Positions 1,745 to 21,160 of a stretch of DNA of 21,160 nucleotides are shown one piece after another. Location of the stretch: positions 1 through 21,160 of IMG/VR virus record IMGVR_UViG_3300037585_003919. One strand, 5' to 3'. This DNA comes from a virus. Numbering within the stretch: the stretch's first letter is position 1; each line of letters starts with the position of its first letter. The notes beneath the pieces were generated by a model. That model made no database searches. It saw only the letters and a list, made by a program, of their open reading frames with translations, and was not told where the DNA came from. A program made the position numbers and the translations under genes.

Positions 1745-1757
1745 ATAATAGAGGTTG

Positions 1758-1830
1758 GGGGGAGATTCATGTAAAAGAGGTTCAAGCATTAATAAGCACG
1801 TGTGTCCTCTTTCTCCCCCTTCCTTTTATT
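1758..1830 (+). terminator. Hairpin after the ssDNA-binding gene, possible terminator or leader structure
   Basis: GGGGGAGA at 1758-1765 pairs with TCTCCCCC at 1812-1819, and AAGAGG at 1775-1780 pairs with CCTCTT at 1806-1811. The right arm is continuous while the left arm has a nine-base bulge. A pyrimidine-rich run (TTCCTTTTATTT) follows. It lies between the stop at 1744 and the primase ATG at 1835. It could end the upstream transcript or act as a 5' leader structure for the primase. The 25-nt inner loop and interrupted T run make it an imperfect intrinsic terminator. Confidence 0.42.
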
Positions 1831-1834
1831 TACT

Positions 1835-2890
1835 ATGATACATTCACGACAAAGCGAAGACACACTTACAAAAGAAGGATTACTTAGTAAAGTATCTGAA
1901 TACCAGATATTTAAATACTATTGTCCACCTTTTGATAAACCAAATAAAAAGTTTAAAAGTGATCTTCGTAAGGACAGAAGTCCTACAGTATCTATAGCAA
2001 TGATCAACACTAGGTTAAAGTATAAAGACTTTGGCCACCCTGATCATACCTTTGATTGTTTCGCTTATGTTGGTTATAAATACAATCTAAACTTTCGTGA
2101 GACTCTTAAACATATAGACCAAAGTTTTTGCCTTGGTTTATCAGCCGCTAAGAGTACGTATAAAGCACCCCCTAAACTCGTTGAAGACATTGAAATAACA
2201 GAGAGTTTACCTGTTAATATTCATGTTAAATGTAGAGACTGGAATAAAGAAGATGCTAAGTATTGGAAACAATTTCATATAAGTAAGAGAATTCTTCGTA
2301 TATTTGATGTTAAACCCATAACACACTACTGGATCAATGAACAACGTTTTTCGTGTAATAGTATCAGCTATCGTTACCGCTTTGACTGCGGTTATAAGAT
2401 TTACCGTCCGCTTGAAAGCGATTTTAAATGGAGCTCTAACGTGGGTAGTCACTGCCTTCAAGGCTACAATGAACTTCCTGAAACTGGTGATCAAGTATTT
2501 CTCACAAGTTCCCTCAAGGATGTTATGTGCTTGGCGTCTTTTGGTCATGCATCCTTTGCGCTTCAATCAGAAATGCTTATGCCAAACCAAAAAACCATTG
2601 ATGAAATCAAAGAAAGGTTCAAAAAAGTAATCGTATTATACGATAATGATTTTGATAAACTTTCTAATCCCGGTCAAAAGATGGCCGATAAGATTTGTAG
2701 GTTATATGGTTTAAGTAATTTGAAGATACCTTCTCATTATAAGAGTAAGGATATATCTGATGTAGTTAAAAATAACGGAATACGAATAGCAAAAAATGTC
2801 ATCAAGAACTTGGAAGGGACGAACAAAGCGAGGGACACCCAAAATAAAATCAAAGCCGACAGAAATAGATGGAATAAAGTTCCGTTCTAA
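1835..2890 (+). CDS. DnaG-like (TOPRIM) DNA primase
   Basis: This encodes 351 residues from ATG 1835. An in-frame GTG at 1802 exists, but it lies inside a hairpin and would add only a low-complexity SSFSPFLLF stretch, so the ATG is preferred. The N-terminal part has the phage-primase pattern of Ser/Asp-Leu-Arg-x-Asp-x-x-Pro-x-x-Ser followed by a KDFG-like element and a helical segment, but no CxxC zinc-finger cysteines. The TOPRIM core follows: VFLTSSLKDVM at 221-231 and VIVLYDNDFD ending at 274, with the metal-binding DxD (Asp270, Asp272) present. The glutamate that normally starts the first TOPRIM motif is replaced by Ser225; a conserved-looking QSE follows shortly after. Its role would be RNA primer synthesis at the phage fork. 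The 3' end overlaps the endonuclease gene by 95 nt. Primase is the best fit; a non-catalytic TOPRIM protein cannot be excluded. Confidence 0.72.
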   Translation: MIHSRQSEDTLTKEGLLSKVSEYQIFKYYCPPFDKPNKKFKSDLRKDRSPTVSIAMINTRLKYKDFGHPDHTFDCFAYVGYKYNLNFRETLKHIDQSFCLGLSAAKSTYKAPPKLVEDIEITESLPVNIHVKCRDWNKEDAKYWKQFHISKRILRIFDVKPITHYWINEQRFSCNSISYRYRFDCGYKIYRPLESDFKWSSNVGSHCLQGYNELPETGDQVFLTSSLKDVMCLASFGHASFALQSEMLMPNQKTIDEIKERFKKVIVLYDNDFDKLSNPGQKMADKICRLYGLSNLKIPSHYKSKDISDVVKNNGIRIAKNVIKNLEGTNKARDTQNKIKADRNRWNKVPF

Positions 2891-3266
2891 ACTAGAGGCT
2901 CATTGTTATCGGATGTTAAAAGATGCTTTTATAGAAGCTGATTATGAAAAACATAAGTATGTTCTTCTAAAAGGCTTTCATTATCCTAACAGTTCTTACG
3001 AGGACAACGGTAAAACAGGATTCCAAGATAAACAGAAACATAAAGTACGCGATATAACTTATACTCCAGACTTCGTAGATCCTAAAGGTAGATGGGTCAT
3101 AGAGTGTAAAGGCTATGCAAACGAACGTTTCCCGCTTAAATGGAAGATGTTTAAACAACTCTTAATGGAACAAGATGATCCCCCGGTACTATTTGTACCA
3201 CGGAATCAACGACAAAACATTGAGACTGTAAATCAAATTTTAGAAATAATAGCCCCGACTAAATAG
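2796..3266 (+). CDS. DUF1064-type PD-(D/E)XK endonuclease
   Basis: This encodes 156 residues. The opening element DGIKFRSKLEA (Glu34) and the later YTPDF (Asp92) plus VIECKGY (Glu103-x-Lys105) give the E...D...ExK arrangement of PD-(D/E)XK nucleases, in the layout of the DUF1064 phage endonuclease family. Such proteins are thought to cut branched or nicked DNA during replication and recombination, which suits a place next to a primase. Length is normal for the family. A stretch of about 20 residues (roughly 65-85) between Glu34 and Asp92 is rich in Lys, Asp and Gly and may be an extra loop. The start overlaps the primase gene by 95 nt. No later in-frame ATG precedes the conserved core, so this long overlap seems real. 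The TAG stop lies inside a terminator hairpin. Confidence 0.78.
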   Translation: MSSRTWKGRTKRGTPKIKSKPTEIDGIKFRSKLEAHCYRMLKDAFIEADYEKHKYVLLKGFHYPNSSYEDNGKTGFQDKQKHKVRDITYTPDFVDPKGRWVIECKGYANERFPLKWKMFKQLLMEQDDPPVLFVPRNQRQNIETVNQILEIIAPTK

Positions 3267-3278
3267 TTGGGGCTTTTT
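3251..3278 (+). terminator. Rho-independent terminator after the endonuclease gene
   Basis: AGCCCC at 3251-3256 pairs with GGGGCT at 3269-3274. The stem continues inward through one G-T pair and three more pairs, giving ten pairs around an AAAT loop (3261-3264), and a run of five T ends at 3278. The TAG stop of the endonuclease gene (3264-3266) sits within the loop and inner stem. This is the clearest single-direction terminator in the window and separates the replication genes upstream from the rIIA-rIIB-exonuclease unit that starts 14 bases later. Confidence 0.82.
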
Positions 3279-3291
3279 AATGCAAAAATAA

Positions 3292-5997
3292 ATGAGTATA
3301 AAGACAATTGGAACACATGCAGACAGTAATAGTACTGGTGTTGAAAAACGAATTAACAAATCTGCTGAAAAACTTGTCTTTGATATTCTTCAATCCACAC
3401 AATACTCTACCCCTATTGCTTCAACTGTACGTGAGCTGGTGACTAACGCCTGCGATTCACAACGTGAGAAGGAAATTGCATTAGAGATATTGTCAGGAGA
3501 AAAAGAAATCAAAGACTATTTTATAACTAGACATGAAGAAGAATATAAAGATTCTAATTTCAATCCTAGCTACTATAGTAGGAATAGGCTTAGCGCTATT
3601 GATAGCGTCACAGTGCAATACACCGAGCGATCTGGCACTGGTTACTGCGATACTTTTAGCGTTTTGGACTACGGTGTGGGTATTGGAATGCCAAGGCTTG
3701 AAGGTTATTTGGAACTGGGTTTCTCGACTAAGAGGAACACGGCAGAAAACTTCGGAGCCTTCGGACTCGGAGCAAAAGTCCCGCTCTCAACAGGAGTAGA
3801 CTTCTATACTGTAGAAACTGCACATGACGGTAAGTTATTTAAGTTTAACTGCTATGCATATAAGACAGATTTTATGATAGGTAAGTTCGAAGGAGATGGT
3901 CATGTGACTATGTCTAATGGAACTAATGTCTATTATAAAAATACTGAAGACACTAATTATACTAAAGTATCATTTGGTGTTAAGAGACACAACAGGGATA
4001 AGTTTAAAGAAGCTGTACAGGATCAGCTAAACTATCTCCCTAATGTAAAGTTTACTTACATCTACGAGGATGGGGTAGAATCAGATAAAACTGTTAAGAG
4101 TGAAGTTTTATACAACTCTGACAATCTGATTGTATCAGACTCGTGGGGTTGGAGTAAACCACATATACTAATGGTTAAAGATCCAAAGTCAACTACCGGT
4201 ATTAACTATGGTTATGTAGATTTCCGTGAGTTAGAAATGGAATCTTTATGGGGTTCAGTGGCTATTAAATGTCCTGCACGTCAAGCATATACATCTCCAG
4301 GTAATGGAACTGAAGTTGTATTACAGGAAGGTGTTGATGTTACCCCAAGTAGAGAGAAAGTTATATGGAACGAAAATACCAAAGCATACATCCAAGGTGC
4401 AATTGAGAGGGCAGCTCAAGACGCAGCAGATGTGATTGAACAACAGTTAGATGAGAAAGACTTTATGACATGGATTAAAAAGTGCAGAGATGTCCTCTAT
4501 AAAGGAGACAATGATGACTCAGTACTTAAAGCTCTAGGTCGTATTGTAGATAAAGAGAAGATCAAGCCTAAGTTTCCTGGAGATAAAACTATAACGTTTG
4601 CTGGCCCTGGTGGTCTATTGAAAGGATACAAGGTAAGAAATGTAAACAGAACATTTAAGAATGGAAAATGGAAGATTGAAAGAGAAGAAGTTGGTTGGGG
4701 TTCAGTGAACTTTAACAATTTGTATTTTATTGAAGGCAATCCGTCTAAGACTAAGGACCTGTACCTTATGAGAGAACAGACCCTGTCCATCATTACTCAG
4801 CATAATCCAGAAGAAGTTGGAGATTCAAACCCAATTAAAGAAGCGTATATAGATAATGTCAATCTTATGCGTGTACGTAATTGGGAATTGATTAAAGACT
4901 CTTCTACGATTAAGTGGGATTATGATGAAATAGAAATACCTGAAGACTTCGAAGCAGGAGTATTACACGATGAAGAGATAAGAGCACAGCATGGTAAGTT
5001 TGAAAACTTGACGCCTGCAGAACGTAGAGAGTTAACAGGAGAACAGGTTCTGTTTACTTTACGTCGAGCAGATTCAGGTGATAAGAAATATGCCAATGAA
5101 GTTGATGACTGGGTATGGGATAAAGTTGAGGCACCCCTTAACTTACTAAAGCAAACATCAGTAGAAACGTACTACGGTACATCTGAAGATGTTGACTTAC
5201 TATATCTAGCCGCTACTATATGTGCGCCTAATGTTCCTGATTGGAACGGTGTTTATCCTGATCTAGATTATTGGCATCAAAATAGAAATACACATGCAAA
5301 TGCACGGAATCAAAATCCTGTGTTTACTAACTTTAAACCACAACGTTTCTTTAATGATTATTATGGGAAATGGGCTAGTGGTATGGGGGAAGATAAAACA
5401 GCACAAAAGGAGACTCCGATACAGTTGTATAAAGTTTCTAATAAGATGGCTAAACAACTTGATGGATCAAACGCTAAGCACATTAGTACTTTCTTTTCAA
5501 TGATTGATAATAATAAATGGACAATGAACGAACAAGTCAAAGAGTGGTTTACAGGATGTATGCTGCCTAAGATCCCAGACTGGGTATCTAAATTAAAAGA
5601 AGTTGACCCGCAGTACGAAGACGTCTTTACTAAATGTATGGAGTATCAGGATAAATATGAACATCATGATAACTTTTATTTCCATAGAGGAAATGAAAAG
5701 ACTCAAGAAGTTATATCTCTAATGAAGAAGATGCATGACATGCAAGTCTTCTTGTTAGATAATGATGACCCTGAAGCTATCAAGAATAAATCCTTGGAAG
5801 TCTTTAAGGTTTCAGATATCCAATCAACCATCATGGATGAAGACATGCTTATACTGGGTCAGTACCTAGAAGAGTTCTTAGAGCCTCTACGTCCACTGTT
5901 TGACCAGGTTCATTTCATTGACTCTCAGGAGTTTTGGAAAGAAATTAGTTCGTATCTTGAGATGAAAAATAGACATAAGTTTAACCCACCATTATGA
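3292..5997 (+). CDS. rIIA-like GHKL ATPase
   Basis: This encodes 901 residues with a GHKL (gyrase/Hsp90/MutL) ATP-binding domain at the N-terminus. The N box is RELVTNACDS (Glu48, Asn52, Asp55), the DxGxG loop is Asp126-Gly128-Gly130, and the glycine-rich lid is FGAFGLGAK (155-162). This layout and the adjoining rIIB-like gene match the T4 rIIA family, although T4 rIIA is shorter (725 residues). T4 rIIA and rIIB are membrane-associated and govern rapid lysis and resistance to exclusion by a lambda prophage; their molecular mechanism is unsettled. The ATG at 3292 follows the upstream terminator after a short A-rich leader; an ATG at 3280 leads at once to a stop. The gene ends in ATGA, overlapping the rIIB-like start. 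Codon use is unusual between about 3600 and 3800 (see findings). ATPase identity is sure; the function is by analogy. Confidence 0.85.
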   Translation: MSIKTIGTHADSNSTGVEKRINKSAEKLVFDILQSTQYSTPIASTVRELVTNACDSQREKEIALEILSGEKEIKDYFITRHEEEYKDSNFNPSYYSRNRLSAIDSVTVQYTERSGTGYCDTFSVLDYGVGIGMPRLEGYLELGFSTKRNTAENFGAFGLGAKVPLSTGVDFYTVETAHDGKLFKFNCYAYKTDFMIGKFEGDGHVTMSNGTNVYYKNTEDTNYTKVSFGVKRHNRDKFKEAVQDQLNYLPNVKFTYIYEDGVESDKTVKSEVLYNSDNLIVSDSWGWSKPHILMVKDPKSTTGINYGYVDFRELEMESLWGSVAIKCPARQAYTSPGNGTEVVLQEGVDVTPSREKVIWNENTKAYIQGAIERAAQDAADVIEQQLDEKDFMTWIKKCRDVLYKGDNDDSVLKALGRIVDKEKIKPKFPGDKTITFAGPGGLLKGYKVRNVNRTFKNGKWKIEREEVGWGSVNFNNLYFIEGNPSKTKDLYLMREQTLSIITQHNPEEVGDSNPIKEAYIDNVNLMRVRNWELIKDSSTIKWDYDEIEIPEDFEAGVLHDEEIRAQHGKFENLTPAERRELTGEQVLFTLRRADSGDKKYANEVDDWVWDKVEAPLNLLKQTSVETYYGTSEDVDLLYLAATICAPNVPDWNGVYPDLDYWHQNRNTHANARNQNPVFTNFKPQRFFNDYYGKWASGMGEDKTAQKETPIQLYKVSNKMAKQLDGSNAKHISTFFSMIDNNKWTMNEQVKEWFTGCMLPKIPDWVSKLKEVDPQYEDVFTKCMEYQDKYEHHDNFYFHRGNEKTQEVISLMKKMHDMQVFLLDNDDPEAIKNKSLEVFKVSDIQSTIMDEDMLILGQYLEEFLEPLRPLFDQVHFIDSQEFWKEISSYLEMKNRHKFNPPL

Positions 5998-7139
5998 TAC
6001 ATGTAAATAGAATAGGTGAAATGATATCCGGCAGCTACGGTAACACCCCGTACTCTCGTAATTACGAGGAGGATGTTTACAATGAAATGCTATCTCTTGC
6101 TACGCAAGCAGATGAGGTTTCAACGGTGGAAGAATATAACGGCATTCTAGAAAAGTTTGCTTTATTAACTACAGAAGATTTCGATAAGAAGATGATACAC
6201 GACCAGTTCTTGGGCGGGGTATCTCTTCATAAAGATTCTGCTGGAAGACATTTTGTTCAATTTGGAGAAGGAGAGGTATTAGGCACTCCGCTACCTGAAT
6301 CATTAGTGAATCGTTTCTACGAATCACATGATAAAGGCGTGGATGTTTCTCCCCTTTACAAACTATGGATGAGATGGCTTCGTAATCCTATACTTAGCAA
6401 GAAAAATGAAAAGTTTACCGAAAGGTTCTTTGACTTTATCGACATGAAGTATGTGCACCCTACACTCAAGAAAGAGTTAATGGAGGAGCACGGACTAAGT
6501 GAAGAACTTGCTGAGCAACGTGCTACTATGTACCAAGTAAAGATCACTAAAGAGGGTCTTGTAAATGCTTTCAAAGTATCTAGAGAGATAATGCATAAGT
6601 ATGATTCTGAGACAGGGGAAGAAGTTCCTCGTTACAAACGTACTTTTAATGTCGATACTGGAGAGATTGAAGGCGAAGGCTTACCTGATACTGTAGAAGA
6701 AAGACTCTTTGAGCCCTCTGTTATGGGGACTGGAGGTGATGCTTTCTACTGTGAGGGTGCTAACGGATTTACTAACCCAGGCCACTTTATTAAAGTTGGT
6801 TGTACACACAGACTCTCTTCATGGGATGAGGTGAACACTAATGATAATGCAACTTGTGTAAAAGGTTTACACGTTGGTGGTCTTAAGTATATCGCTTGGT
6901 ATAGTGGTGAAATTCACAATGTTTTTATTGATCCTATGCACATTGGTGCTGTCCCTGATTCAGAGGATGGTGCTATTCGTTGCCTTCAGTACTTCGTACA
7001 CTCCAGCTTAGTTGGTGTGAATGGTAGTATGTATCACTCTTCTGCGTATGCAGCTAAGACTGATGAAGAGTGGGTAAAATTAAAACATGATGTACTCCTT
7101 GATATGCAAAAGGATGTACTGTCTTTACAGAATCTGTAG
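5994..7139 (+). CDS. rIIB-like protein
   Basis: This encodes 381 residues and its ATG overlaps the rIIA-like stop by four bases (ATGA), which implies coupled translation and a joint role. The diagnostic part is the C-terminal half. HRLSSWDEV is followed by the signature CVKGLHVGGLKYIAWY (Lys290-Gly291-Leu292-His293-Val294-Gly295), then a hydrophobic strand with FIDPMHIGAVP and a closing strand RCLQYFVH. This resembles the conserved end of T4 rIIB and its relatives. T4 rIIB has 312 residues; the extra length here is mainly in the N-terminal, charged helical part, which looks family-specific. No membrane segment is visible. The role is probably in lysis timing or in defence against exclusion by prophages, together with the ATPase upstream. 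The family call is good; a precise role is inference. Confidence 0.78.
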   Translation: MIHVNRIGEMISGSYGNTPYSRNYEEDVYNEMLSLATQADEVSTVEEYNGILEKFALLTTEDFDKKMIHDQFLGGVSLHKDSAGRHFVQFGEGEVLGTPLPESLVNRFYESHDKGVDVSPLYKLWMRWLRNPILSKKNEKFTERFFDFIDMKYVHPTLKKELMEEHGLSEELAEQRATMYQVKITKEGLVNAFKVSREIMHKYDSETGEEVPRYKRTFNVDTGEIEGEGLPDTVEERLFEPSVMGTGGDAFYCEGANGFTNPGHFIKVGCTHRLSSWDEVNTNDNATCVKGLHVGGLKYIAWYSGEIHNVFIDPMHIGAVPDSEDGAIRCLQYFVHSSLVGVNGSMYHSSAYAAKTDEEWVKLKHDVLLDMQKDVLSLQNL

Positions 7140-8732: not shown

Positions 8733-9062
8733 ATGATAGAAGGAATATGGTTTTGTGACGAACATGCTACAGATACATCAAAATATATAAGTAAAGATTT
8801 GGATACTATCGAAGAAGTAAAGTATATTCTCAACGAGATATATAAAATGCTCGATGAGAAGAATAAAGCCTACGGAGATTCCGCGTTGAACCCGATTAGA
8901 TTATTTTCACGAGCTAATGCTCAAGAGGCACTTCGTGTACGAATAGACGATAAGCTAAGTCGGATTAAAAATCAAGATCTTAATGATAATGAGGATTCAA
9001 TTGCAGACTTAATTGGGTATCTAGTTTTACTTAAAGTAGCTATTAAAAAGAAAAGGGGCTAA
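8733..9062 (+). CDS. DUF1599 / nucleotide-modification-associated domain 1 (Nmad1) protein
   Basis: This encodes 109 residues, almost all of them one domain. The signature is clear: KNKAYGDSALNPIRLFS (Lys43 to Ser59), then LRVRIDDKLSRIKN (67-80), then EDSIADLIGYLVLLK with acidic residues Glu87, Asp88 and Asp92. This is the all-helical DUF1599 / Nmad1 pattern, distantly like MazG nucleotide pyrophosphohydrolases, and often found near phage base-modification genes. A role in nucleotide-pool control or in handling a modified base is plausible, but no base-modifying enzyme is visible in this window. The start at 8733 lies after a 13-bp hairpin. The TAA stop (9060-9062) sits in the loop of the terminator shared with the giant leftward gene. 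Confidence 0.88.
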   Translation: MIEGIWFCDEHATDTSKYISKDLDTIEEVKYILNEIYKMLDEKNKAYGDSALNPIRLFSRANAQEALRVRIDDKLSRIKNQDLNDNEDSIADLIGYLVLLKVAIKKKRG

Positions 9063-9074
9063 CGCCCCTTTTTT
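9051..9074. terminator. Bidirectional terminator between converging genes
   Basis: AAAAGGGGC at 9051-9059 pairs with GCCCCTTTT at 9064-9072 around a four-base TAAC loop, and the T run extends to 9074. Read leftward, the same hairpin is followed by a T-rich tail interrupted by one C, so it can stop transcripts from both sides. The loop contains most of the TAA stop of the Nmad1 gene, and the giant gene's stop (9083-9085) is nine bases beyond. It marks the border between the rightward replication block and the leftward virion block. Confidence 0.85.
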
Positions 9075-9082
9075 ACCACGGA

Positions 9083-12000
9083 TTATTTCTGTAAGAACTT
9101 AATCTTTTCCTCAGGAGTTAACGTTGATATCATACCATCAACAACTGGAAGAACTCTTTTAATCTTGTGCATGATTTTTCTATCACCTTTCTCATTGATA
9201 CCTGACTTACGCTGATAGAAAATATCCTCTTCCCCGGTTATCCCTATTGCGTATCCTACCTCAGCAGCACCTTGGTCAATAAGCCCAGTCCACTTTCTTA
9301 ACAGGTTAGCTGTAGCTGTTGGTGAATCTATTATTCTCATAGCTTCCTTTGGATTAACAAACTGTAGCATCTCTGTATTCAATCGCTTAGCTTGATAAGC
9401 AAAGAATCTAAGAGCATAGTTATCATCGTCATCATCACTCATCATACCGGCTAAAGCTCTCCCGATCGCATACGTTGCTAATACTACAGATGTCTCAAAG
9501 AATGCACGGCGTATGTTTTGTTGATCCGTCTCCGAGTAATCACTTAGTGCAAATCTACCTTGAGTAAACATGTTCTTTAAGTAATCTAATGCTGATAAGT
9601 ACATACCTCTAGTTACTGTACCTGCTTCCTGATCTACGTGGTATCCATCACCATGCCCAAACCTCTTACGAAGTTGTGGTTGGAAATAATTACGGAATAA
9701 AGTCATCACCTTACCTAAAGCTGATCTTTGGAAATGTGACTTATCACGTCTACCTTTTATTTGGTTAGTTCTTTTTTGTACAGAGTTAAGCTTAGCTACA
9801 AATTTACCTTGATCAAAGTTAGCAACACGTGGGTCTACCACAAGGAACCCTTTTTCATCCATTACTAGAAGATCCCATAAATCAGCAGGCTTACCTTCTT
9901 TGTTGTTAATTACCTTACCACTCTTATCCTTAAGCTTACCTTCCATAGCTTTCATTAAAGCAATCATTCTTACACCAGAAGTCTGATGTTCCACTGCATG
10001 CTGCAGTACAAAGAATGAATCAGTAGACATAGCTTGTTTAGTCTTACCACCGGTAATATTTTTACCCGCTCCATCTGTCATTTCTACAAGTGCATCAAAC
10101 ATTTGCATAGCTTGTCCAAGTTTGGTAGTTGGAGCCATCTTACCTAAGTCTGACATTGCTCCTCCTGAAGCTGCGTATTCTGCTATAGCTGCTCTGTAAT
10201 TTGCACGAGTAAAAAACTGTCCTGCCCATGCTTCCTCCCACGTCATAAGGTTATCAAGAATTGCTTGGTTACCTGCTTGAAGTGTGTTAAACGATAGCGT
10301 GTTAAGTGCTGTTAATACAGACACTGATGATGCTATCTTGTTTGCCTCACCAAGACCTCTAATGTATTGAGGTATATCATACATACCATAGAAGTTAGCA
10401 TCTACAAATGACTGCAAATGCTTAAAAGTATTAGAGTCTATACCCTTACCCTTTCTGTATACTTGAGCGTCTCCTGGAGATAGCTTATTAAGAATCCTAG
10501 ACCCAGTTGATGGATCAGTTTCTAATACTTCTCTACGTGCATGTATGTCAAGCATAGTATTTACTAATCCTTGCATCTCAGCTTTAGCTTCAAACATGTT
10601 TGTCATATGATGAAACTGCATTAAGCTAGCTGCTATATCACGACTTACATCTTTAGCATCAACTCTATTTGTGTACAGGATTGGTACACCTTTTTGTACT
10701 TGCCCATCTACTTCCTGGAATACACCATACTCTATATCTGTAGCTTGTCTAGTTAAACTGTCTACTACTTGATCTTTAACACCAGAGAACACTCCTTGTT
10801 CCTGTACTCGATCTGCACTATCTTTTCTAATAGCAGGCATCTGATACGAGAACGTATCCCATGCATTAGTAAATAAATTAGCTTTAGTACCTCTAGCCTG
10901 GTCAGCATGGTATCTATCTACCATTGCTTTGTAATAAGCTTTCTTTGCAGGATCTGCTTGTATAGCCTCCCATTGCTTACTCCTATACTTATCACTAGGT
11001 CTAGCTAATGCTCCTGAATAAGTTTCATTACTTTTATTCCATTTAGCATCTTTAACTAACTCTCCTAATTCTTGCTTTAATACTGCTAGTTTATCTTGAT
11101 CGAATGCAGACTCTGATCCTTCTAACTCTGCAATTTGATCTTTTAGTTTTTGTTGTTCTTTTTGATTTTCATCAAACAATGCATCAGCATTTTCAACCGG
11201 CTGAGTATTCTCTGCATACCAAGCTGCTCTACTTCTATAGTACTGTCGTACTGCAGGAGAACCTTTACCTGTCTCATCCATAGCCCATTGCTTGTAAGCT
11301 TCACTATTCCTAGCTACAAACTTACCGTTTTTATCTTTAGGCCATCCATTATTTTCTTTAAAGCTATTTTCTGCATTAGTACGTGCTTTGTAAAATTCAT
11401 TTACATCATACTCTTGTACTAAAAATAATAAATTTTGTCCTTTAACATTATGTTCTGTTAAGAAAGGTTTATTGAATTCACTAACATTAATGCCCCCACC
11501 TTTAGCTTCTCTAAATGCATCATATACTTTTTGGAAATCAAAGATAGTTTTTCTACTACCTTCATTTGCCTTAGTCATTTGATCTATATAGGCAAGAGCA
11601 AATAACTGAAGATTTTGTTCTGAAGAATAAACTAAAGGATCCATTTGATAAGAGTATGCAGACTTATCTACATGCGCTTGAGTCATTTCTTTTATCAACT
11701 GCTTCCTGCCAAGCTTCTTATTACTTAGCTGTTCAATTTTAAGATCAAGAAGTGCTTTTTCTCTTTGAGCATCGCTAAGCTCTCCTCTACCATGCTTAAC
11801 TTGTATTAAACTGTACTCAGGATCTCTCTTATCAATACCAGCTATGTCTTTATTACGTTTAGCTGCTGCAATAATATTATCTAAATCTGCATTTACTTCC
11901 TCACTACCATAGTTAACAATAGAATCAGCTGCTAGTGGAATAGCTATCTTAAGATATTCATTATCTAACTCTTGAGCATCAATTAGTGCTTCTTGTAAAT

Positions 12001-15000
12001 CTGCTAGAATATCTTTCTTACGTTGCTCTGTACCTTCTTCCCCTACCACATCACGCAGCAATACTTGTGTTTGTCTTACAAGACTACCACCCCCATCTAC
12101 TCCGTCAATAATTCTTCTTACTACATCAACCTGCTGTAATACTCTTAAAGCTTCTTTCTTACCAACTGGTGCCTCTCTTTCAGATAGATTTCTTAAATCA
12201 TTCATCATAGCCTTGGCCCTGTCTACATTAAGAACTACATACTCTTGGATCTTCATAAACGCATCAATGTCGTTTTTGTTTTCCTTTAGTCTCTTAAGGT
12301 TTTTCTTTAATTCTTTTAGCCTACGTACTTGTTCAGTGTCTCTTGTAGCTTCTGGCACCATCTCGAGTTGACGTATCTCTGCATTGACGCTAATAGTAGC
12401 AGTCTTGTACAGGTTATCAACTTCAGTTTGCATATCCCTAGATCGTTGGACTTTGGAATTAAATATACCAGACAATTGTAATCCACGTAATTCACCAGCA
12501 AACATCTTTTCTGCAAGAACTACAGCCGCATCAGGTTGTACCCCAAACAGTTTACCTATAGCTCGCATAATTCTGTTAATCAGTCTACGGAATGCACTAG
12601 GCTTATTCTTTTCAATGTTAGCTCCTTCAATACCTATAGCTGTTACAAGTATCTCTTTACCCATTTCAAACTCACTTAAGTTATCACCTGCATACGCATC
12701 TTCTACTTGCTTGACTAGATCTGGACGAAGCTTTCTTACTTGTGCTATGTATTTTTCTACTTCTGCTTTAGGCAACATGTCTACAATGATGTGACCAAAC
12801 TCGTGGTAAGCTGTATCGTCTGTCATCTGTGATGGATCAAACGTAACAACGTCTCCGTCAACTTGACCTTTTACCCCTTTTGGCAAGGAGCCTTCTTCTA
12901 CGATTACATCAATTCCCGCATCTGCAAACGCAGCTTTTAGTTTAGAAATCTTAGCCTTAGGATCTGCCTCACGACTTAAGATTGCATCAATTTCTCTACT
13001 TAATGTTGCTTTATTCTGTACAGGTTGCATACTTTCTGGAGTAGCATTTTTGTTAGGATATAATATACTACGATCGTTACCTGCTTCATTTAACATTCCT
13101 TCACGTCCCCTTGTTTCAGTTCTGTGATAAGTTACTATCTTTTGGCCTTCTCCATCTGAAATTCCTGTTTCTATTCTTTCATATACGTAAGAGTTTCCAA
13201 ACCCATCAGTAGCTACTATATAAAATGGTTTTCTTTTTAATATTTTATCAGGAATAATACTTAATACTGGCGATGGTACTCCTCTTACCATACTAACTGC
13301 ATTATCTAATACCGGGAACATAGGTTTTTTACCAAGCTTCATATGACCGTAATCTTGTAGGAACCTAGATTTAAGATCATTCAGTGCTGATGCGGTAGTC
13401 TCTACCTTAACCATTTCTTGTGCTAAGTATTCTCCTGCACCTATTTCTTTCATAACAGAGTTAGGTAACATCCCAAACATAGAAGTTGGGGATGTTATAA
13501 ATCCTGTAGTAGATATTGAATTGGTAATAAGATCTTTAGCAAAGTTCTTTATTTGGATAGTAGTTTGTGCATCATACCCAAAAGACTCTGGTCTATTTAG
13601 CATGCGCTCCCACTCTCTTTGCATCTTGTTTTGCTCAGCTAATGTTCTACCTTGAGCATTGTTAAACTCTAAACTAAAGAACTTGTTTTTAGCATTATAT
13701 TGAGTCTCTTTAGGAGTAAGCTGCTTAATAATACTAAGGTTAGCTATTAATGGCAGCTGTCTCATATTACTCAAGCCTGCTATAATATTCTGATCCGTAG
13801 ATAAATGTACTATGCTTAAAGTATCTTCTGTCAAGTAAGCAGACTCGCTAAGTGGGGACCCTTGCTTAGTAAGTAAATGATGAGATATTATTCTATTTAA
13901 AGCTTTATGCTCTTCTATACCTAAAAACCCTTTACCAGTTAAATCTTTTACAAAGTTTTTAAATCCAGTAACTGATATCTGTGTACCAATCATACCTGCT
14001 CTATTGGCAACATCTATTGCTGTTTCCATAGCTCCATAATATGCAGCTTGGTATCTATACAGGTCTCCTGTCAACACTCCCTCTACAAAAGATGCTCCTC
14101 CATAAGCATCAAGCTGTCCTTCTCTAATAGCATTTATCTTATCGAAGTATGCCTGGTGTGCAGCAACAGTACCAGCCCCGTCTATGTTGTCTACAGACAC
14201 GGCTGAGTATGTAGTCTGCAATGCATTAGCACCTTTATATAAAGCTATTAACGTATCCTCTATTTCTCTAGTAGGAGTTTCTTCTGTAATATCTAGATTA
14301 GCTGTATTATTTTCTTTTTTATTACTACCAAAGAAGAATGCTTTCTTAGGAGTATTTTCATCTTTGCTTTGCATAGCTTCAGTAACCTTCCTTACATGTG
14401 GATTGTTAAGAAACTTAATAATTTGTTGTGGTGTGGCACCTATGCTTAATAGGTATACTGTAAGTGGTGCTGTCTTAGAATTATCGTTAGCTGCATTTTG
14501 CAACGGATCTTTTACAGAGTCAACAGCTGCAGATAGGTATTGCTTCAAGTAGTGGTCAGTAGGTCTGATGATACCAAATACATCCGGGAATGCTGAGTTT
14601 TGTGTAACAGCATTTAACCTCTTACCATCTACAGTTACAGTTACAGGACCAGTGATCTCTTGTCCTGTTGACGTTACTATGTTTCGTCCAGCTATAGAGT
14701 TAGCATATATACCACGGAGTGACATAGATAACATGTTCTCGTATGCAGCTGTAATATGTGTCATAGGGTTAAACAAGTCTACATCACCACGCTGTTCTTT
14801 ACTCATACCTATCGCTGCTAGTCCTGCTTCAATATCTCTAATACCTTCTGGGTCTAAAACTTCTTGTGCATGAATAGGATCTACAGCAACAGCTTCCATC
14901 ACATCTAATATGATATTGTTTACTGCTTTTGCAGGGTATGTTGCATCAAGTATTTGTGCCGGGTTAGCACTAAGAGACTTATAGTCTGGCATAATTCTAC

Positions 15001-18000
15001 CTGTACCGTCTTTCTTTTGTGCGGGCATCATTAAGAACATCTTATCAATGTCAAAGTCAGAACCCATAGCAGTAGTAATCTGAGCTGGTACACGTACCGC
15101 GGACTGAGCTCCAGATTTATTAACCCTTTTAATTTTAAGAGTTACCATAAATGATTTACTCGCATTTGGTATACGGTATGCAATCATTCTTTTGTTTTCC
15201 TCTGCTACATCTGTAGTATCTAAGTCTACACCTACAGGCAAGTCAAGTCCAAACGCTTTCATTTGTGCCTCTCCTATCTCTATCTCTGCATGTGTAACAT
15301 AACCATCTTCGTTTACATCTAAGAACTTAAGCTCTCCTGTTTCTTCATGAGCCCCAAACTCTGCAAACTGCACCATCTCAAGCCCATCAACTTTTTGCTT
15401 GTATACGTTTCTTCTAAAAGCACTAAATAATAGACTATCAAATGTAGTTTGGAAACCAGGGTAGCTAAGTGGTAAACCAAACATCACATTACCTGCCTGA
15501 TCTAACTCTAGCCTCATACTTTCAATAACATTCTCAGCAAGGCCTCTTTCTTTAGCCATGTCTAAAAGCCTATTACGTAAAGTAACCATAAACTTACTGT
15601 CTACTATCTGGTCTTTATTTTGCTCAAAAAATTCACTAGTAAATCCTAATGCATTTTTAAGTTCGTTAAGATCATTCTGAACCTTACGTTCAATAGCATT
15701 ATGATATATCTCCAACATCTTAGAGCCCTTAACTTTTGTAGCCTTGCCGGTTCCAATGTTAAGAGTGTAGCTATGATTACGATCAACGTTAGCTATCTGA
15801 TTCTTCTTAGGCTGCTTACCAAGGTTTGTCTTGGTCTCTTCTTTGATGCCTATATCTTGCGGGAATCTTAGACCTCTAGTGTCCAAAGTCATTACATGCA
15901 GTTGATCAAACTGTCCTGCAAATAAAGTTTCTGGGGTAGATATAAGTTTGTTATCTACAATCTTATATGGACGTATCTGCCCAAGCTTAGTAGCTGACTC
16001 TGTATTGATGACATTAATAGGAGTCTGACCTGCATATTGATCTCTTCCTTCCATACGAGCAAGCATATCTTCAAGAACAGGACGTCCATCTGCAAGATCT
16101 CGAGTAAGAATCATGTAAGAATTTTTATCTGATATAGGTATATTTATATCAGAGAGAGATCCTCCCATATTATTTATTGTATCATACTGAGGCTTCATAG
16201 GGACAAGTGGACTACGTGTTACATCCCAAGGTTGTCCAGCTTTGTACTCTTCGTACACCTCCTGATCGCTAGGCATCCATTCTCCTTGTCCTTGCCTAAT
16301 TTTTCTGTAGTGGTCTATGCTAATAAATGCTTGTGCATCTGTAGCGTTAGTTTCTCTATACTTTTTTATTGCATCCTCTGCAGCTTTTTTAGCATTTTCT
16401 GGAGTAGCCCCACGACTTATTAATCCTTTCTCAATAGCAGCACCATATTTCTCTGCAAGTCCGTTAAGATCTTCAGGGGTAAGATCTTTAACTGTAGCAG
16501 TAGTAAATGTAGGATCAGCTCCATACTCTCCTGCAACAGTTATATTAAGCATGCCTCCTGGTGTAGTAACAAGATTGGCTCTCTTAATAAATGTTCTTCC
16601 GTCTTTAGTCCAATTGCTTGTACCGTTACGTAACATTTGATTAGATACTTTTTTACCTAATACATCAGTTAAAATAAAATCCTCTAAGAAATTATCTAAA
16701 TTACCATAATTAGAAAATACATCTGCTCCAAGCTTTGATTTAAGAAGTCCTTCTAAATTTGGATTCGCATCTTTTATTTCTCCTTTGATTGTAGATAGAG
16801 CCTTGTTAACATCTTCACCTAACCCTTCTAATATTTCATTGCTTATTGGATCACCATATTCATAATGATTATAAATAGCTTGAGCTCTTTTTTCATTATA
16901 CTTTAGCCCAGGTAAGTTCATTCTTTTGAACCACTCCTTAGTATGGTAACCTTCTATTAATGGATCGTTATTTGTTTTAGCTTTATCTATGTACCTCTTT
17001 GCCTTGTATGCTCTGTGCATATCAAGTATAATCTCATTCTTAATAATAAGAGTAGCAGTCTCATTACTAACTAGTCCAAGCGCTTTAAACCCTTTCCCAT
17101 TCCTATTAGATACCTTAGGGAAAGTATGAAAAGTCATACGCTTTCTATCCGCTTGTGTAGTAAGTGCTACATTAGATGTATCCTGGCCTCCGTTATGAAA
17201 TTGAGACATAACAACAACCATCACGTCTTCTTGGTTAAGTTCGTCGTATGCTTTGTTCTGTTCTCCTTTTAGTATCCCAAGATCTGTAAACTTAAACTTA
17301 CCTTTAAATTTAGGCGAAGTAAGAAGCTTTGCACTTATACCTACAATTTGACCTTTAATGCTTACCCCATCTTTGCCTAGCATTTCTACAGCTTGGGTTC
17401 CATCTTTTATTCTATTCTGTAGATTATTTATTTCTGTACGAGCATTAATAGGGTAGATAAGCTTACCTCCCATATTAAATGAAGTAGCAGGAGCTGACTC
17501 AAATGGTTCTACAAAGTCTCTTATAACTCTGTCAATAGTTTTCTTTTCAGTTTCAAACAGATTAACATGACCTATATCATCACCTTTATTATTCCTTCTA
17601 GTAGGATTTGAATGTAATGCAGCTAACGTTGTGAGTTGTGTTCTAGGAGCACTAATAAGTCTAGATATATCTACATTGCCGCTAAGCACTTGAGATCTTA
17701 CACGCTCTCTTGCCTCTTCTCTTGTAGGAGCTATGCTCATACCCATGTCCATTAAAAGATCAGCAAGTACGTTAGCATTCTCTACAGTATTCGTACTGTC
17801 TTTCTTAAGCTTAGATATGCCTTCTTTAATAGTAGCTGCTTTTTCTGGAGAAAGCCTAAAGACATCATTATCTAATGCATCTTTAGTAACTGTATATAAA
17901 GTTTGACCTGCTTCAGATTTCCACTTCTTTTTAAAAAATGATGTAGAAGATTGTGAGTTAGCATCAAAAGTTCTAGCAGATCTCTCTGCTGTTTCAGTGC

Positions 18001-21000
18001 TAAGAGCAGGATCTATAATTACAAACTCAGTCAGTCCTAAACTACCAAAGTTGTTGAACAACAATGATTTTTGTTGATTATTAAGAGAGCTAACGAACTG
18101 TGATACTCCTGCAGCTGGGTGTGATGCAGGTAACTGTCTAAGCTTTTCTGCCATCTCAACACTATTCTTAGAATTGTATGTAGCACCAAGCACTGCAGCA
18201 TATATATCTGCTACCGGTACAAACGTGTCATACCCAAACACTCCTGTGTTTTTTACGTCTGTAGATACAGGTATCCTCCCAAGTAATCTTTTTACTTTAT
18301 CAGTTAGTTTTTTGTAAGGGTTTTCTTCTAATCTACCCTTGTTATATATACGTTGGTATACAACACCTACATCTTCTACAAGTATTTTAGTATCTGATTT
18401 TTCTCTTACTGTATACCCAAACTCTTCAAGCCTGTCTAGTACATCAGCTCGCATACCACGGTCTTGCTCCATGCCAGTAGCATCGTACGTGCTAAACCAC
18501 GTATCGTATACTTCTTGTAAGTATGCTTTTCTTTGGGGATCTTCTGTTTTAGCTGCTTCATCTCTAAACCACTCAGCAATCATAGAGCCTTCACCCGCTG
18601 TGCCTTCTGTAGATTCAGGGTCTCCAAACAACATACCAGCATCTAACGGTTGATTTTGTTCTACAAGAGACTTAATCGTATTAAGTACTTTAGCTACTCC
18701 TACATCTCTAGCTTCCTCAAATACTCTAGCATTACCAACTCTATCTAATGCAGATAACGTTGTTTCTACTTGAGGTGCAGGTTCTGTTTCAATAGGATTA
18801 TCTTCTATTACTTCAGGAAGTACTTCTATTTCTACATCTTCTACAGTATCAGCTGGTACTGCGTTTTCTTCAATTGGGGCCACAGGAGTCTCTTCATTTA
18901 CTGCATCTCTAGTAGCTTCTTCAAGTTTACCATCAGTGGCATTGTACTCCATGGTAACACCAATGTCATGGAAAAACTCACCATAAGTTCGATCCATAGC
19001 TTTAAAGTCTACAGCTAAAGGACCAACATCATTAGTGTTCTCCATAAGTGTAGCATCAGATAAATAGTCTAAGTAGTTATCATACTGTGTACTATCATCT
19101 ATAGGTGAAATAAACATTCCATCTACATTAATAAGCCTTGTATCAATTTGAAATTTTGAACTCTTAAGATTATTCTTTATAAGATCAGTTACAATTTTAG
19201 TATCCTTTGGATCACCATCTTTTACTACCTCAAAATTACCAGCTTCGTCATAATTACCAACACTAAACTTTACATTCTCCTCTTCAGATTTAGCAAACTG
19301 ATCAGTGTACATACGATATACAACACCTGTTTCATCTTTTACAAGAATGTAATTACTAAGAACACCATCTATATCTGAAGTACCTATATTTAATCTAGGA
19401 CCTAATCCGACTAAACTTTCTAACTTACTTGCAGCCCCATCTTTATTACTTTTTAAAAGTCCATGAGCTGTCTGATAAGCAATACTACTTTGTCCTATCG
19501 TTCTTGCACTAGCTGCAGCTGGTCTATACTTGCCATCAGGCTGTTTAAGTATTATATATACTGTACCTGGCTTAAGACTGTCTCCATTTATATTTGTAAT
19601 CTCATTAAGTTGACTTTCGTCAAAAGGAACTATTTCACCATCTTGATCTACTTTTCCTGTATCTATGTAAGTCTGCTTTGTACGCTCCCCTGTCTCCTCA
19701 TCTACAACCTCTCTACCTCTTATTATACCTAGTATAGGCTGTTCTTCTGACTTTTCAAAAGCTTCCTGTACTGATATAAACTTTTGATTACCTTGCTCAT
19801 CAACCATGTTATTAGGGTTGTTGAAATCTCTACCGGTAATTTCAGCTGTAATCTTTTCACCAGTTTCTAGTCTTTTTAATAAAGTAGAATAGTCTGCAGA
19901 TACATTTCTAACTAAGCCTATGTAGTCGTTACCAACTTTTATAGCTATAGTCTTTCCATCTTTTAACAACTCAAACGTTGCTATTTTGTTTTCTAGCCCA
20001 GGCTTAAACAATGGCTCTCTATTAAGTTGCACATCGTTATTTTCAAACAGCCTCTCGTCATACTCTATCCTACCTTTAGAAGGATTGTTCTGGTTGTTAA
20101 CAGTTATTTTATACTTCCCAATTCCTTGACTTCTGTCTAGAGTAAAATCACCAGCATTAATAACAATACCTGCTTTAGCGTTATCTATATCCCTAGAATT
20201 ATCAATACCTTGCTCTGCTTGTGCAGCTGCTGCTTCTTTATCTGCAGCAATTTCGTCTGCATCTTTTTGAGCTTGCTCAGCTTCTGTTGCTTCTGCAATC
20301 ATTTCTGCAGCTTCTGCATCAGCTGCTTGTTCTTCAGAGTCTGTAAGGTCCATTACTTCCCCTCCAACCGGTTCTAGTCTTGCTGTTGTTCGTCCTTCTT
20401 CTTTAGCTTGCTTAACCTCATCTTGCATAATTGATTTACGCACAGGATCTTCTTCTTCTTTAAGAAGTTCTTCTATTGCAGCGGGAGTCATTGCCCCAAT
20501 CTCTTGCCTAATCTTAGCTTCTGCTTCGTTCCTTTCACGTTTAACCTGCGCTATTTCTTCTTGCATAGCTGGAGATGCATTGCTTGCATCTACATCTGCC
20601 AGATCAGATTCTTTTACAGTCTCATTAATATCCTCTCTAATAGCTTGGTCTATCTTGTCTTGCTTTGCTTGTTCCGCTCTAGACTTTTCTCTTAAAACAT
20701 ATGCATCTCTTACTTCAGGAACAGCACTAAGGTTATTAAGAGCTTCTACCGCTTTCCTTCTATCAAGTGAAAGACCTAATAGATCTTGCATTTTTTCTTT
20801 AATCTCTTCTCTTAAAACAGGATTTGTTTCATTAATTCTTAAAAGAGATTCGTTTAATTTATCTAGTTGTTCTTGAGTAGTTACAGGTGCTACAACATTA
20901 CCAGAAACATCTCTTGTTCCTACTTCAACAGGTTGTAAAGGATCTCCAACTACAGCACTAAATATTTCACGGTTATTTAAAATATCTTGAATATTACCAC

Positions 21001-21154
21001 TCCCTTCAGGATCAGCTTTATTTATTTCATTAACAAGATTATCTACTCTACCATCTATATTAGTAAGATCAGCTGAGTTATTAAACAGCATACGTTTGTA
21101 CAATGTCTCATCAGCAATAATTTCTGCTTCCTCGTTCTTTTTCTCTTTAGACAT
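9083..21154 (-). CDS. Giant crAss-like virion RNA polymerase polyprotein with zincin protease motif
   Basis: This uninterrupted frame encodes about 4,023 residues from the ATG at 21154. The frame stays open to the window edge, so a further N-terminal extension cannot be excluded. Residue numbers here count from base 21160. Residues 158-320 are charged, Glu/Ala/Lys-rich and probably coiled; 754-800 form an acidic Pro/Val linker. The polymerase core, about 1300-2300, contains SDFDIDKMF (DFDID at 2035-2039), the metal-binding loop of the two-barrel RNA polymerases of crAss-like phages. Lys1725 (ESATKLGQ) and Lys1773 (FPQDIGIKEE) are candidates for the partner barrel. At 2786-2790 lies HEFGH, with Glu2836 (EMGKEILVTAIG) as a possible third zinc ligand: a zincin. 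Coiled-coil stretches follow (about 2911-3011 and 3324-3368). The C-terminus has a hydrophobic segment (3890-3907) and then five aspartates (3909-3913). It is probably packaged, injected and used for early transcription, as known for phi14:2 gp66 (roughly 2,200 residues). The protease role is unknown. Confidence 0.85.
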   Translation of the reverse strand: MSKEKKNEEAEIIADETLYKRMLFNNSADLTNIDGRVDNLVNEINKADPEGSGNIQDILNNREIFSAVVGDPLQPVEVGTRDVSGNVVAPVTTQEQLDKLNESLLRINETNPVLREEIKEKMQDLLGLSLDRRKAVEALNNLSAVPEVRDAYVLREKSRAEQAKQDKIDQAIREDINETVKESDLADVDASNASPAMQEEIAQVKRERNEAEAKIRQEIGAMTPAAIEELLKEEEDPVRKSIMQDEVKQAKEEGRTTARLEPVGGEVMDLTDSEEQAADAEAAEMIAEATEAEQAQKDADEIAADKEAAAAQAEQGIDNSRDIDNAKAGIVINAGDFTLDRSQGIGKYKITVNNQNNPSKGRIEYDERLFENNDVQLNREPLFKPGLENKIATFELLKDGKTIAIKVGNDYIGLVRNVSADYSTLLKRLETGEKITAEITGRDFNNPNNMVDEQGNQKFISVQEAFEKSEEQPILGIIRGREVVDEETGERTKQTYIDTGKVDQDGEIVPFDESQLNEITNINGDSLKPGTVYIILKQPDGKYRPAAASARTIGQSSIAYQTAHGLLKSNKDGAASKLESLVGLGPRLNIGTSDIDGVLSNYILVKDETGVVYRMYTDQFAKSEEENVKFSVGNYDEAGNFEVVKDGDPKDTKIVTDLIKNNLKSSKFQIDTRLINVDGMFISPIDDSTQYDNYLDYLSDATLMENTNDVGPLAVDFKAMDRTYGEFFHDIGVTMEYNATDGKLEEATRDAVNEETPVAPIEENAVPADTVEDVEIEVLPEVIEDNPIETEPAPQVETTLSALDRVGNARVFEEARDVGVAKVLNTIKSLVEQNQPLDAGMLFGDPESTEGTAGEGSMIAEWFRDEAAKTEDPQRKAYLQEVYDTWFSTYDATGMEQDRGMRADVLDRLEEFGYTVREKSDTKILVEDVGVVYQRIYNKGRLEENPYKKLTDKVKRLLGRIPVSTDVKNTGVFGYDTFVPVADIYAAVLGATYNSKNSVEMAEKLRQLPASHPAAGVSQFVSSLNNQQKSLLFNNFGSLGLTEFVIIDPALSTETAERSARTFDANSQSSTSFFKKKWKSEAGQTLYTVTKDALDNDVFRLSPEKAATIKEGISKLKKDSTNTVENANVLADLLMDMGMSIAPTREEARERVRSQVLSGNVDISRLISAPRTQLTTLAALHSNPTRRNNKGDDIGHVNLFETEKKTIDRVIRDFVEPFESAPATSFNMGGKLIYPINARTEINNLQNRIKDGTQAVEMLGKDGVSIKGQIVGISAKLLTSPKFKGKFKFTDLGILKGEQNKAYDELNQEDVMVVVMSQFHNGGQDTSNVALTTQADRKRMTFHTFPKVSNRNGKGFKALGLVSNETATLIIKNEIILDMHRAYKAKRYIDKAKTNNDPLIEGYHTKEWFKRMNLPGLKYNEKRAQAIYNHYEYGDPISNEILEGLGEDVNKALSTIKGEIKDANPNLEGLLKSKLGADVFSNYGNLDNFLEDFILTDVLGKKVSNQMLRNGTSNWTKDGRTFIKRANLVTTPGGMLNITVAGEYGADPTFTTATVKDLTPEDLNGLAEKYGAAIEKGLISRGATPENAKKAAEDAIKKYRETNATDAQAFISIDHYRKIRQGQGEWMPSDQEVYEEYKAGQPWDVTRSPLVPMKPQYDTINNMGGSLSDINIPISDKNSYMILTRDLADGRPVLEDMLARMEGRDQYAGQTPINVINTESATKLGQIRPYKIVDNKLISTPETLFAGQFDQLHVMTLDTRGLRFPQDIGIKEETKTNLGKQPKKNQIANVDRNHSYTLNIGTGKATKVKGSKMLEIYHNAIERKVQNDLNELKNALGFTSEFFEQNKDQIVDSKFMVTLRNRLLDMAKERGLAENVIESMRLELDQAGNVMFGLPLSYPGFQTTFDSLLFSAFRRNVYKQKVDGLEMVQFAEFGAHEETGELKFLDVNEDGYVTHAEIEIGEAQMKAFGLDLPVGVDLDTTDVAEENKRMIAYRIPNASKSFMVTLKIKRVNKSGAQSAVRVPAQITTAMGSDFDIDKMFLMMPAQKKDGTGRIMPDYKSLSANPAQILDATYPAKAVNNIILDVMEAVAVDPIHAQEVLDPEGIRDIEAGLAAIGMSKEQRGDVDLFNPMTHITAAYENMLSMSLRGIYANSIAGRNIVTSTGQEITGPVTVTVDGKRLNAVTQNSAFPDVFGIIRPTDHYLKQYLSAAVDSVKDPLQNAANDNSKTAPLTVYLLSIGATPQQIIKFLNNPHVRKVTEAMQSKDENTPKKAFFFGSNKKENNTANLDITEETPTREIEDTLIALYKGANALQTTYSAVSVDNIDGAGTVAAHQAYFDKINAIREGQLDAYGGASFVEGVLTGDLYRYQAAYYGAMETAIDVANRAGMIGTQISVTGFKNFVKDLTGKGFLGIEEHKALNRIISHHLLTKQGSPLSESAYLTEDTLSIVHLSTDQNIIAGLSNMRQLPLIANLSIIKQLTPKETQYNAKNKFFSLEFNNAQGRTLAEQNKMQREWERMLNRPESFGYDAQTTIQIKNFAKDLITNSISTTGFITSPTSMFGMLPNSVMKEIGAGEYLAQEMVKVETTASALNDLKSRFLQDYGHMKLGKKPMFPVLDNAVSMVRGVPSPVLSIIPDKILKRKPFYIVATDGFGNSYVYERIETGISDGEGQKIVTYHRTETRGREGMLNEAGNDRSILYPNKNATPESMQPVQNKATLSREIDAILSREADPKAKISKLKAAFADAGIDVIVEEGSLPKGVKGQVDGDVVTFDPSQMTDDTAYHEFGHIIVDMLPKAEVEKYIAQVRKLRPDLVKQVEDAYAGDNLSEFEMGKEILVTAIGIEGANIEKNKPSAFRRLINRIMRAIGKLFGVQPDAAVVLAEKMFAGELRGLQLSGIFNSKVQRSRDMQTEVDNLYKTATISVNAEIRQLEMVPEATRDTEQVRRLKELKKNLKRLKENKNDIDAFMKIQEYVVLNVDRAKAMMNDLRNLSEREAPVGKKEALRVLQQVDVVRRIIDGVDGGGSLVRQTQVLLRDVVGEEGTEQRKKDILADLQEALIDAQELDNEYLKIAIPLAADSIVNYGSEEVNADLDNIIAAAKRNKDIAGIDKRDPEYSLIQVKHGRGELSDAQREKALLDLKIEQLSNKKLGRKQLIKEMTQAHVDKSAYSYQMDPLVYSSEQNLQLFALAYIDQMTKANEGSRKTIFDFQKVYDAFREAKGGGINVSEFNKPFLTEHNVKGQNLLFLVQEYDVNEFYKARTNAENSFKENNGWPKDKNGKFVARNSEAYKQWAMDETGKGSPAVRQYYRSRAAWYAENTQPVENADALFDENQKEQQKLKDQIAELEGSESAFDQDKLAVLKQELGELVKDAKWNKSNETYSGALARPSDKYRSKQWEAIQADPAKKAYYKAMVDRYHADQARGTKANLFTNAWDTFSYQMPAIRKDSADRVQEQGVFSGVKDQVVDSLTRQATDIEYGVFQEVDGQVQKGVPILYTNRVDAKDVSRDIAASLMQFHHMTNMFEAKAEMQGLVNTMLDIHARREVLETDPSTGSRILNKLSPGDAQVYRKGKGIDSNTFKHLQSFVDANFYGMYDIPQYIRGLGEANKIASSVSVLTALNTLSFNTLQAGNQAILDNLMTWEEAWAGQFFTRANYRAAIAEYAASGGAMSDLGKMAPTTKLGQAMQMFDALVEMTDGAGKNITGGKTKQAMSTDSFFVLQHAVEHQTSGVRMIALMKAMEGKLKDKSGKVINNKEGKPADLWDLLVMDEKGFLVVDPRVANFDQGKFVAKLNSVQKRTNQIKGRRDKSHFQRSALGKVMTLFRNYFQPQLRKRFGHGDGYHVDQEAGTVTRGMYLSALDYLKNMFTQGRFALSDYSETDQQNIRRAFFETSVVLATYAIGRALAGMMSDDDDDNYALRFFAYQAKRLNTEMLQFVNPKEAMRIIDSPTATANLLRKWTGLIDQGAAEVGYAIGITGEEDIFYQRKSGINEKGDRKIMHKIKRVLPVVDGMISTLTPEEKIKFLQK

Positions 21155-21160
21155 AAACAA

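Follow-up and report, generated by a model that had tools for sequence, protein, structure and literature searches.

The minus-strand frame and its surroundings

The window, as we call the whole stretch of DNA analysed here, comprises 21,160 nucleotides of the IMG/VR virus record IMGVR_UViG_3300037585_003919. On its minus strand, one unbroken open frame runs from the right edge to a stop codon at 9083-9085. The frame is still open at that edge; position 21154 is not the gene start, and the true start lies outside the window. A longer contig (L002), differing from the window by 5 mismatches in 17,356 aligned bases, holds the complete gene of 4,652 codons (L002:3767-17725; 4,652 aa), whose start and the stop of an 824-aa gene overlap in ATGA. 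Adding 629 to a window residue number r gives the full-length number, r+629. An earlier note on this DNA had described a single frame of about 4,000 residues; the frame is indeed single and unbroken, but with the N-terminus outside the window the whole protein has about 4,650 residues, with a chain mass of 515 kDa.

A second contig (L003), from a different metagenome, encodes a 4,627-aa protein in a likewise unbroken frame, with 85% identity over the whole protein. Between L002 and L003, dN/dS was 0.135 overall and 0.04-0.37 per full 150-codon block, including the regions of the two junctions described below. Purifying selection acts on the entire frame, the junctions too. Since the same frame is found in two independent assemblies with low dN/dS, it represents one coding sequence under selection. 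The window is a linear 21-kb fragment with the frame open at its edge, as might be expected if the frame were an assembly error or were never translated as a single protein. This reading is, however, hardly conceivable given the recurrence in two metagenomes, dN/dS below 0.4 in all blocks and the occurrence of more three-part fusions in another clade. An assembly error joining separate genes, which the earlier note had named as one of two findings that would overturn its interpretation, is thus excluded.

Two other features of the window were noted. Between the convergent gene ends, at 9055-9074, a short GC-rich inverted repeat is followed by T runs and looks like a terminator serving both strands. 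At 3292-7139, two genes match the rIIA and rIIB profiles (phrog_612, E 2e-19; phrog_609, E 3e-7), flanked by a Holliday-junction resolvase-like gene and an exonuclease.

At the nucleotide level, the window had no match among phage records, and searches of Pfam and PHROGs with the whole protein returned no significant family. Judged by the proteins encoded on the contig of its relative, the window phage is a crassvirus: L003 carries a crass portal (phrog_6547, E 2e-118) and head protein (phrog_11589, E 1.6e-83), and its major capsid protein matches 129 phage records, mostly crassviruses, at ~28% identity.

Three phi14:2 virion proteins in one chain

On the evidence of sequence matches, the frame is a colinear fusion of homologues of three separate virion proteins of phage phi14:2, which are encoded there in the order gp67 (1,797 aa), gp66 (the RNA polymerase, 2,180 aa) and gp65 (1,421 aa), and which MS/MS, according to the record annotation, has detected in virions. 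Matches within the 4,652-aa protein are to gp67 at residues 85-466 (E 8e-8), to gp66 at 2114-2682 and 2835-2891 (E 9e-20) and to gp65 at 3910-4651 (E 4e-33). The earlier note had proposed a polymerase fused to partner regions on both sides and exceeding gp66 in size; these partners turn out to be the gp67 and gp65 homologues, with their order kept. Profiles built from relatives with split genes place the two junctions as listed below, where all boundaries of domains and junctions are edges of profile matches and therefore approximate. Beyond the window edge is the conserved N-terminal domain of gp67 (residues 73-468).

9083..21160, minus strand: fused virion RNA polymerase gene, its 3' 4,025 codons, none of them for cysteine
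18872..21160, minus strand: gp67-like part, C-terminal half (full-length residues 630 to ~1390)
18722..18886, minus strand: junction 1 (gp67-like part/polymerase), a Pro/Glu-rich linker near full-length residues 1386-1440, no Cys (approximate)
13112..18871, minus strand: gp66-like RNA polymerase part, full-length residues ~1390-3310
13895..17017, minus strand: polymerase catalytic core, window residues 1380-2420, predicted two-barrel RNA polymerase fold (AlphaFold2 model)
15044..15058, minus strand: DFDID catalytic loop (DxDxD), window residues 2033-2037
13052..13144, minus strand: junction 2 (polymerase/gp65-like part), near full-length residues 3300-3330, no Cys
12413..12952, minus strand: zincin-like domain of the gp65-like part
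12791..12805, minus strand: HEFGH metal-binding motif (HExxH), window residues 2784-2788
9095..10867, minus strand: conserved C-terminal domain of the gp65 family

The assignment to the Crassvirales virion RNA polymerases (gp66 family) is secure by profile and by predicted fold. The DFDID loop lies inside the one frame, as the earlier note had said, within the motif GSDFDIDK, and phmmer places the protein in the gp66 family (E 1.6e-14). A profile of 66 relatives of the window protein, built with gp66 left out, finds the phi14:2 gp66 structure (PDB 6vr4) at E 1.3e-270 and no other PDB match. The core was modelled with AlphaFold2 (pLDDT 86.6, pTM 0.88), and in a Foldseek search of this model 6vr4 was the best match (E 2e-33, TM 0.73); the RNAi polymerase QDE-1 came second, and RNA polymerase II was a weak further match. 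Only 6vr4 and QDE-1 match the fold significantly; multisubunit RNA polymerases rank next, with no T7-like single-subunit polymerase domain among them. The two double-psi barrels that the earlier note had expected around DFDID are thus borne out at the level of the predicted fold, in one chain and with a QDE-1-like fold. By analogy with phi14:2 and crAss001, the polymerase would be packed in the virion and transcribe early genes.

Giant polymerase chains are known from other phages. The comparison with N4, also drawn in the earlier note, holds at the level of function only. N4 gp50 (3,500 aa) is one giant chain as well, delivered with the DNA and without Cys; it belongs, however, to the T7-like single-subunit polymerases and not to the two-barrel enzymes, and was not found as a homologue of the window protein. 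In P23-45, a two-barrel virion polymerase is part of a giant delivered protein (5,002 aa), but its partner is the tail tape measure protein and the phage belongs to another group (PMC10770324).

Fusion states and terminal cysteines across Crassvirales

Two scans of viral contigs yielded 160 loci (numbered with an L), and all but a few of the phages in the comparison are metagenomic. The grouping of the three parts was assigned from domain profiles, with cysteines not used, and nearly every possible combination occurs: three genes, gp67 fused to gp66, gp66 fused to gp65 (L024), a break shifted past the zincin-like domain (L067, L080), and all three parts fused (window phage, L028, L032, L035, L042, L045). 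In a phylogeny of the polymerase core, the state of junction 1 changed at least five times and that of junction 2 at least three times, and the fusion of all three parts is found in two separate clades. The earlier note was right that other crassviruses divide these parts among several genes, but fusion is no singular event, and the view of it as a lone oddity is ruled out by two- and three-part fusions recurring across the order. Indeed, a fused crassvirus polymerase by itself is an already known kind of protein: a review speaks of polymerases of up to ~6,000 aa and of "1-3 large subunits", fusions among crass-like phages are noted in the P23-45 paper (PMC10770324), and the annotation of p-crAssphage (Carjivirus communis) gp44 already describes a fused subunit. 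In the latter phage (gp44/gp45), the polymerase is fused to the gp65-like part, so two of the three parts are joined rather than all three, and there is one Cys on each side of the remaining break.

In L007, L075 and L128 the polymerase gene is broken exactly at DFDID (L007:10170-11068, L075:11368-12243, L128:11944-12877), and in L007 an endonuclease gene sits between the polymerase halves. The interruption is probably a self-splicing intron. No Cys stands beside it in these three loci, as expected for an intron and not for a protein end.

The fused and split forms differ in their cysteines. The fused proteins contain none in 4,627-5,639 aa: the window phage has 0 in 4,652 aa, where ~53 would be expected from the other genes of these loci, and the other three-part fusions of 5,472-5,639 residues have 0 as well. 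In split phages, the parts are almost free of Cys except for one at each end that faces a partner. As an example, phi14:2 has exactly four, all at such ends: gp67 has only Cys1797, its last residue, gp66 only Cys3 and Cys2179 (of 2180), and gp65 only Cys3. Cysteine counts cover a first set of ~84 loci, annotated phage loci included, and a second set of 52 contigs absent from the first. Over these 136 loci, Cys was present at 326 of 347 junction-facing ends versus 0 of 190 outer ends. Within the first set, a Cys lay within 10 residues of 97/101 C-ends and 105/111 N-ends facing a junction, and of none of the outer ends (0/50 N-ends, 0/75 C-ends). The 52 new contigs gave 56/60 C-ends and 68/75 N-ends by the same limit, versus 0/22 N-ends and 0/43 C-ends on the outside. 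In control ORFs, an end Cys occurs in ~6-15%; these, together with the normal Cys content of the other genes in the window, rule out end cysteines as a general trait of the genomes.

The position of the end Cys varies (2-7 from the start, -1 to -9 from the end), and it moves with the break: in L067 and L080 the Cys pair is shifted along with it. In crAss001, where gp47, gp50 and gp49 are the homologues of the N, polymerase and C parts, respectively, and where the genes are separate and the end Cys present, the rule holds although the gp67 homologue (gp47) is encoded on the opposite strand, showing that it is not a by-product of gene adjacency. Mapped on the tree, junction 1 comprises 33 split cases with Cys and 33 fused without, with 0 exceptions, and junction 2 comprises 83 split with Cys and 10 fused without, with 2 exceptions. 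As independent contrasts, there are at least five and three changes at the two junctions, and all eight agree with Cys loss upon fusion; sign tests per junction gave p 0.06 (junction 1) and 0.25 (junction 2), short of significance due to too few independent changes. Six further annotated genomes are concordant (p-crAssphage, jaberico, DAC15, Fpv3, ProJPt-Bp1 and cr272_1). It speaks against the rule that some lineages (L082, L084, cr272_1) are not Cys-poor. The exceptions to the rule were traced to the interruption at DFDID (L007, L075, L128), to a wrong choice of start (L007, L111, L128), to a fragment (L036) or to an N-domain missed by the profile (L076, L084, L086, L163), and are only partly accounted for in L066, L132, L105, L107 and L109.

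What appears to be new here is the Cys rule, the fusion being known already: in the open-access papers searched, we found no earlier description of end cysteines in crass cargo. A Cys-poor cargo as such is not specific to these phages, as N4 gp50-52 and T7 gp15 also have 0 Cys. Cys avoidance may thus be general for ejected proteins, the end Cys being the exception.

A proposed end-to-end chain and its alternatives

The pairing of Cys across nearly every break and its absence at fused junctions are what would be expected of pieces that have to be linked end to end, and suggest that the parts are always delivered in that form. A disulfide would be the simplest joint, given that its position can vary by a few residues, that virions could allow it to form and that the cytoplasm would open it. 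We infer the disulfide itself, the packaging and the ejection as a chain. By homology, the three-part cargo would be packed in the capsid, where in split phages the C-end of one part would be disulfide-bonded to the N-end of the next. The chain would then thread through the tail while partly unfolded and go on to transcribe early genes; the bonds, formed in the oxidising virion, would be reduced and opened in the host cytoplasm, which would release the parts. In the window phage, peptide bonds would take the place of both links, both Cys pairs being gone, and the lack of other Cys would avert wrong pairings. Our best explanation, a fused cargo polymerase whose three parts form one physical chain throughout the order, with end-Cys disulfides where the genes are split, is in our judgement fairly probable. 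We are also inclined, with slightly more reserve, towards the broader statement that in every crassvirus the delivered polymerase cargo is one covalent three-part chain, whether by disulfides or by gene fusion. For crAss001, disulfides have been reported in the virion tail, and gp47, gp49 and gp50 are reported virion cargo that must partly unfold to pass constrictions of <50 angstroms; the three proteins are not resolved in the cryo-EM paper.

A bond between the parts being an inferred one, the end Cys could instead serve homodimers, another virion protein or a metal, with fusion dropping sites no longer needed. Lone end Cys are also found in p-crAssphage gp47 and Fpv3 gp30, as this reading would allow. 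It is nevertheless unlikely, since the Cys stand only at partner-facing ends and never at outer ends, since nearly every break has them on either side, and since they move with the break; attachment to a third protein, moreover, does not predict the loss of both members of a pair upon fusion. The two lone cases are single end Cys in other cargo-type proteins, at -2 in p-crAssphage gp47 (L173:20141-22714) and at 5 in Fpv3 gp30 (L176:9913-11709), and the linked chain may extend to more members in some families, or they may mean something else. In some crassviruses, thioredoxin-like genes lie near the polymerase block (L175:46-324, p-crAssphage gp39; L177:36142-36417); they are possible helpers in making or opening disulfides, and could equally be genes of nucleotide metabolism.

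The earlier note had left it between delivery as one chain and later cutting. A polyprotein, cut into three by the zincin-like domain or a host protease before packaging or after delivery, would fit several features: in the gp65-like part, an HExxH motif followed by a conserved distal Glu (HExxH...E) lies just after junction 2, the p-crAssphage annotation names a zincin protease in this block, and junction 1 is a flexible Pro/Glu-rich linker. However, the domain belongs to the gp65 family in fused and split phages alike. HExxH is kept in the clade of the window phage and in many split phages, while EExxH is found in fused L032, L035, L039, L042 and L045 and in crAss001. As HExxH does not follow fusion, self-cleavage is not required for it, and zincin-driven cutting as a requirement of fusion is ruled out by the degenerate motif in another clade of three-part fusions. 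Furthermore, a model of the domain had no significant match in a fold search against the PDB and a Pfam search made no call, so that the zincin fold itself is tentative; the domain's profile against PDB sequences gave chance matches only. Finally, the cut products would be without the end Cys that nearly every split relative keeps. We therefore regard a polyprotein as decidedly improbable; the Cys rule speaks for delivery of a single chain. In part of the order, a (P)EExxH form is conserved, in which the first His is replaced by Glu and the second His and the distal Glu are kept (e.g., L005:8437-12483, which is crAss001 gp49, L032, L035 and L042); the result may be a pseudo-enzyme or a changed metal site.

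Crassviruses and N4-like phages pose the question, still open, of how a series of giant folded proteins can exit the phage head in order when the channel is <50 angstroms wide. The Cys rule offers a simple and testable answer, namely that the proteins form one thread, for a group that includes some of the most abundant human gut viruses, and it predicts the exact cross-linked peptides in cultured phages. The fused gene of the window, which yields the thread directly, serves as the natural control. If the proposal is true, a phage could send several giant proteins down a narrow tail in a set order, as a thread, and release them afterwards.
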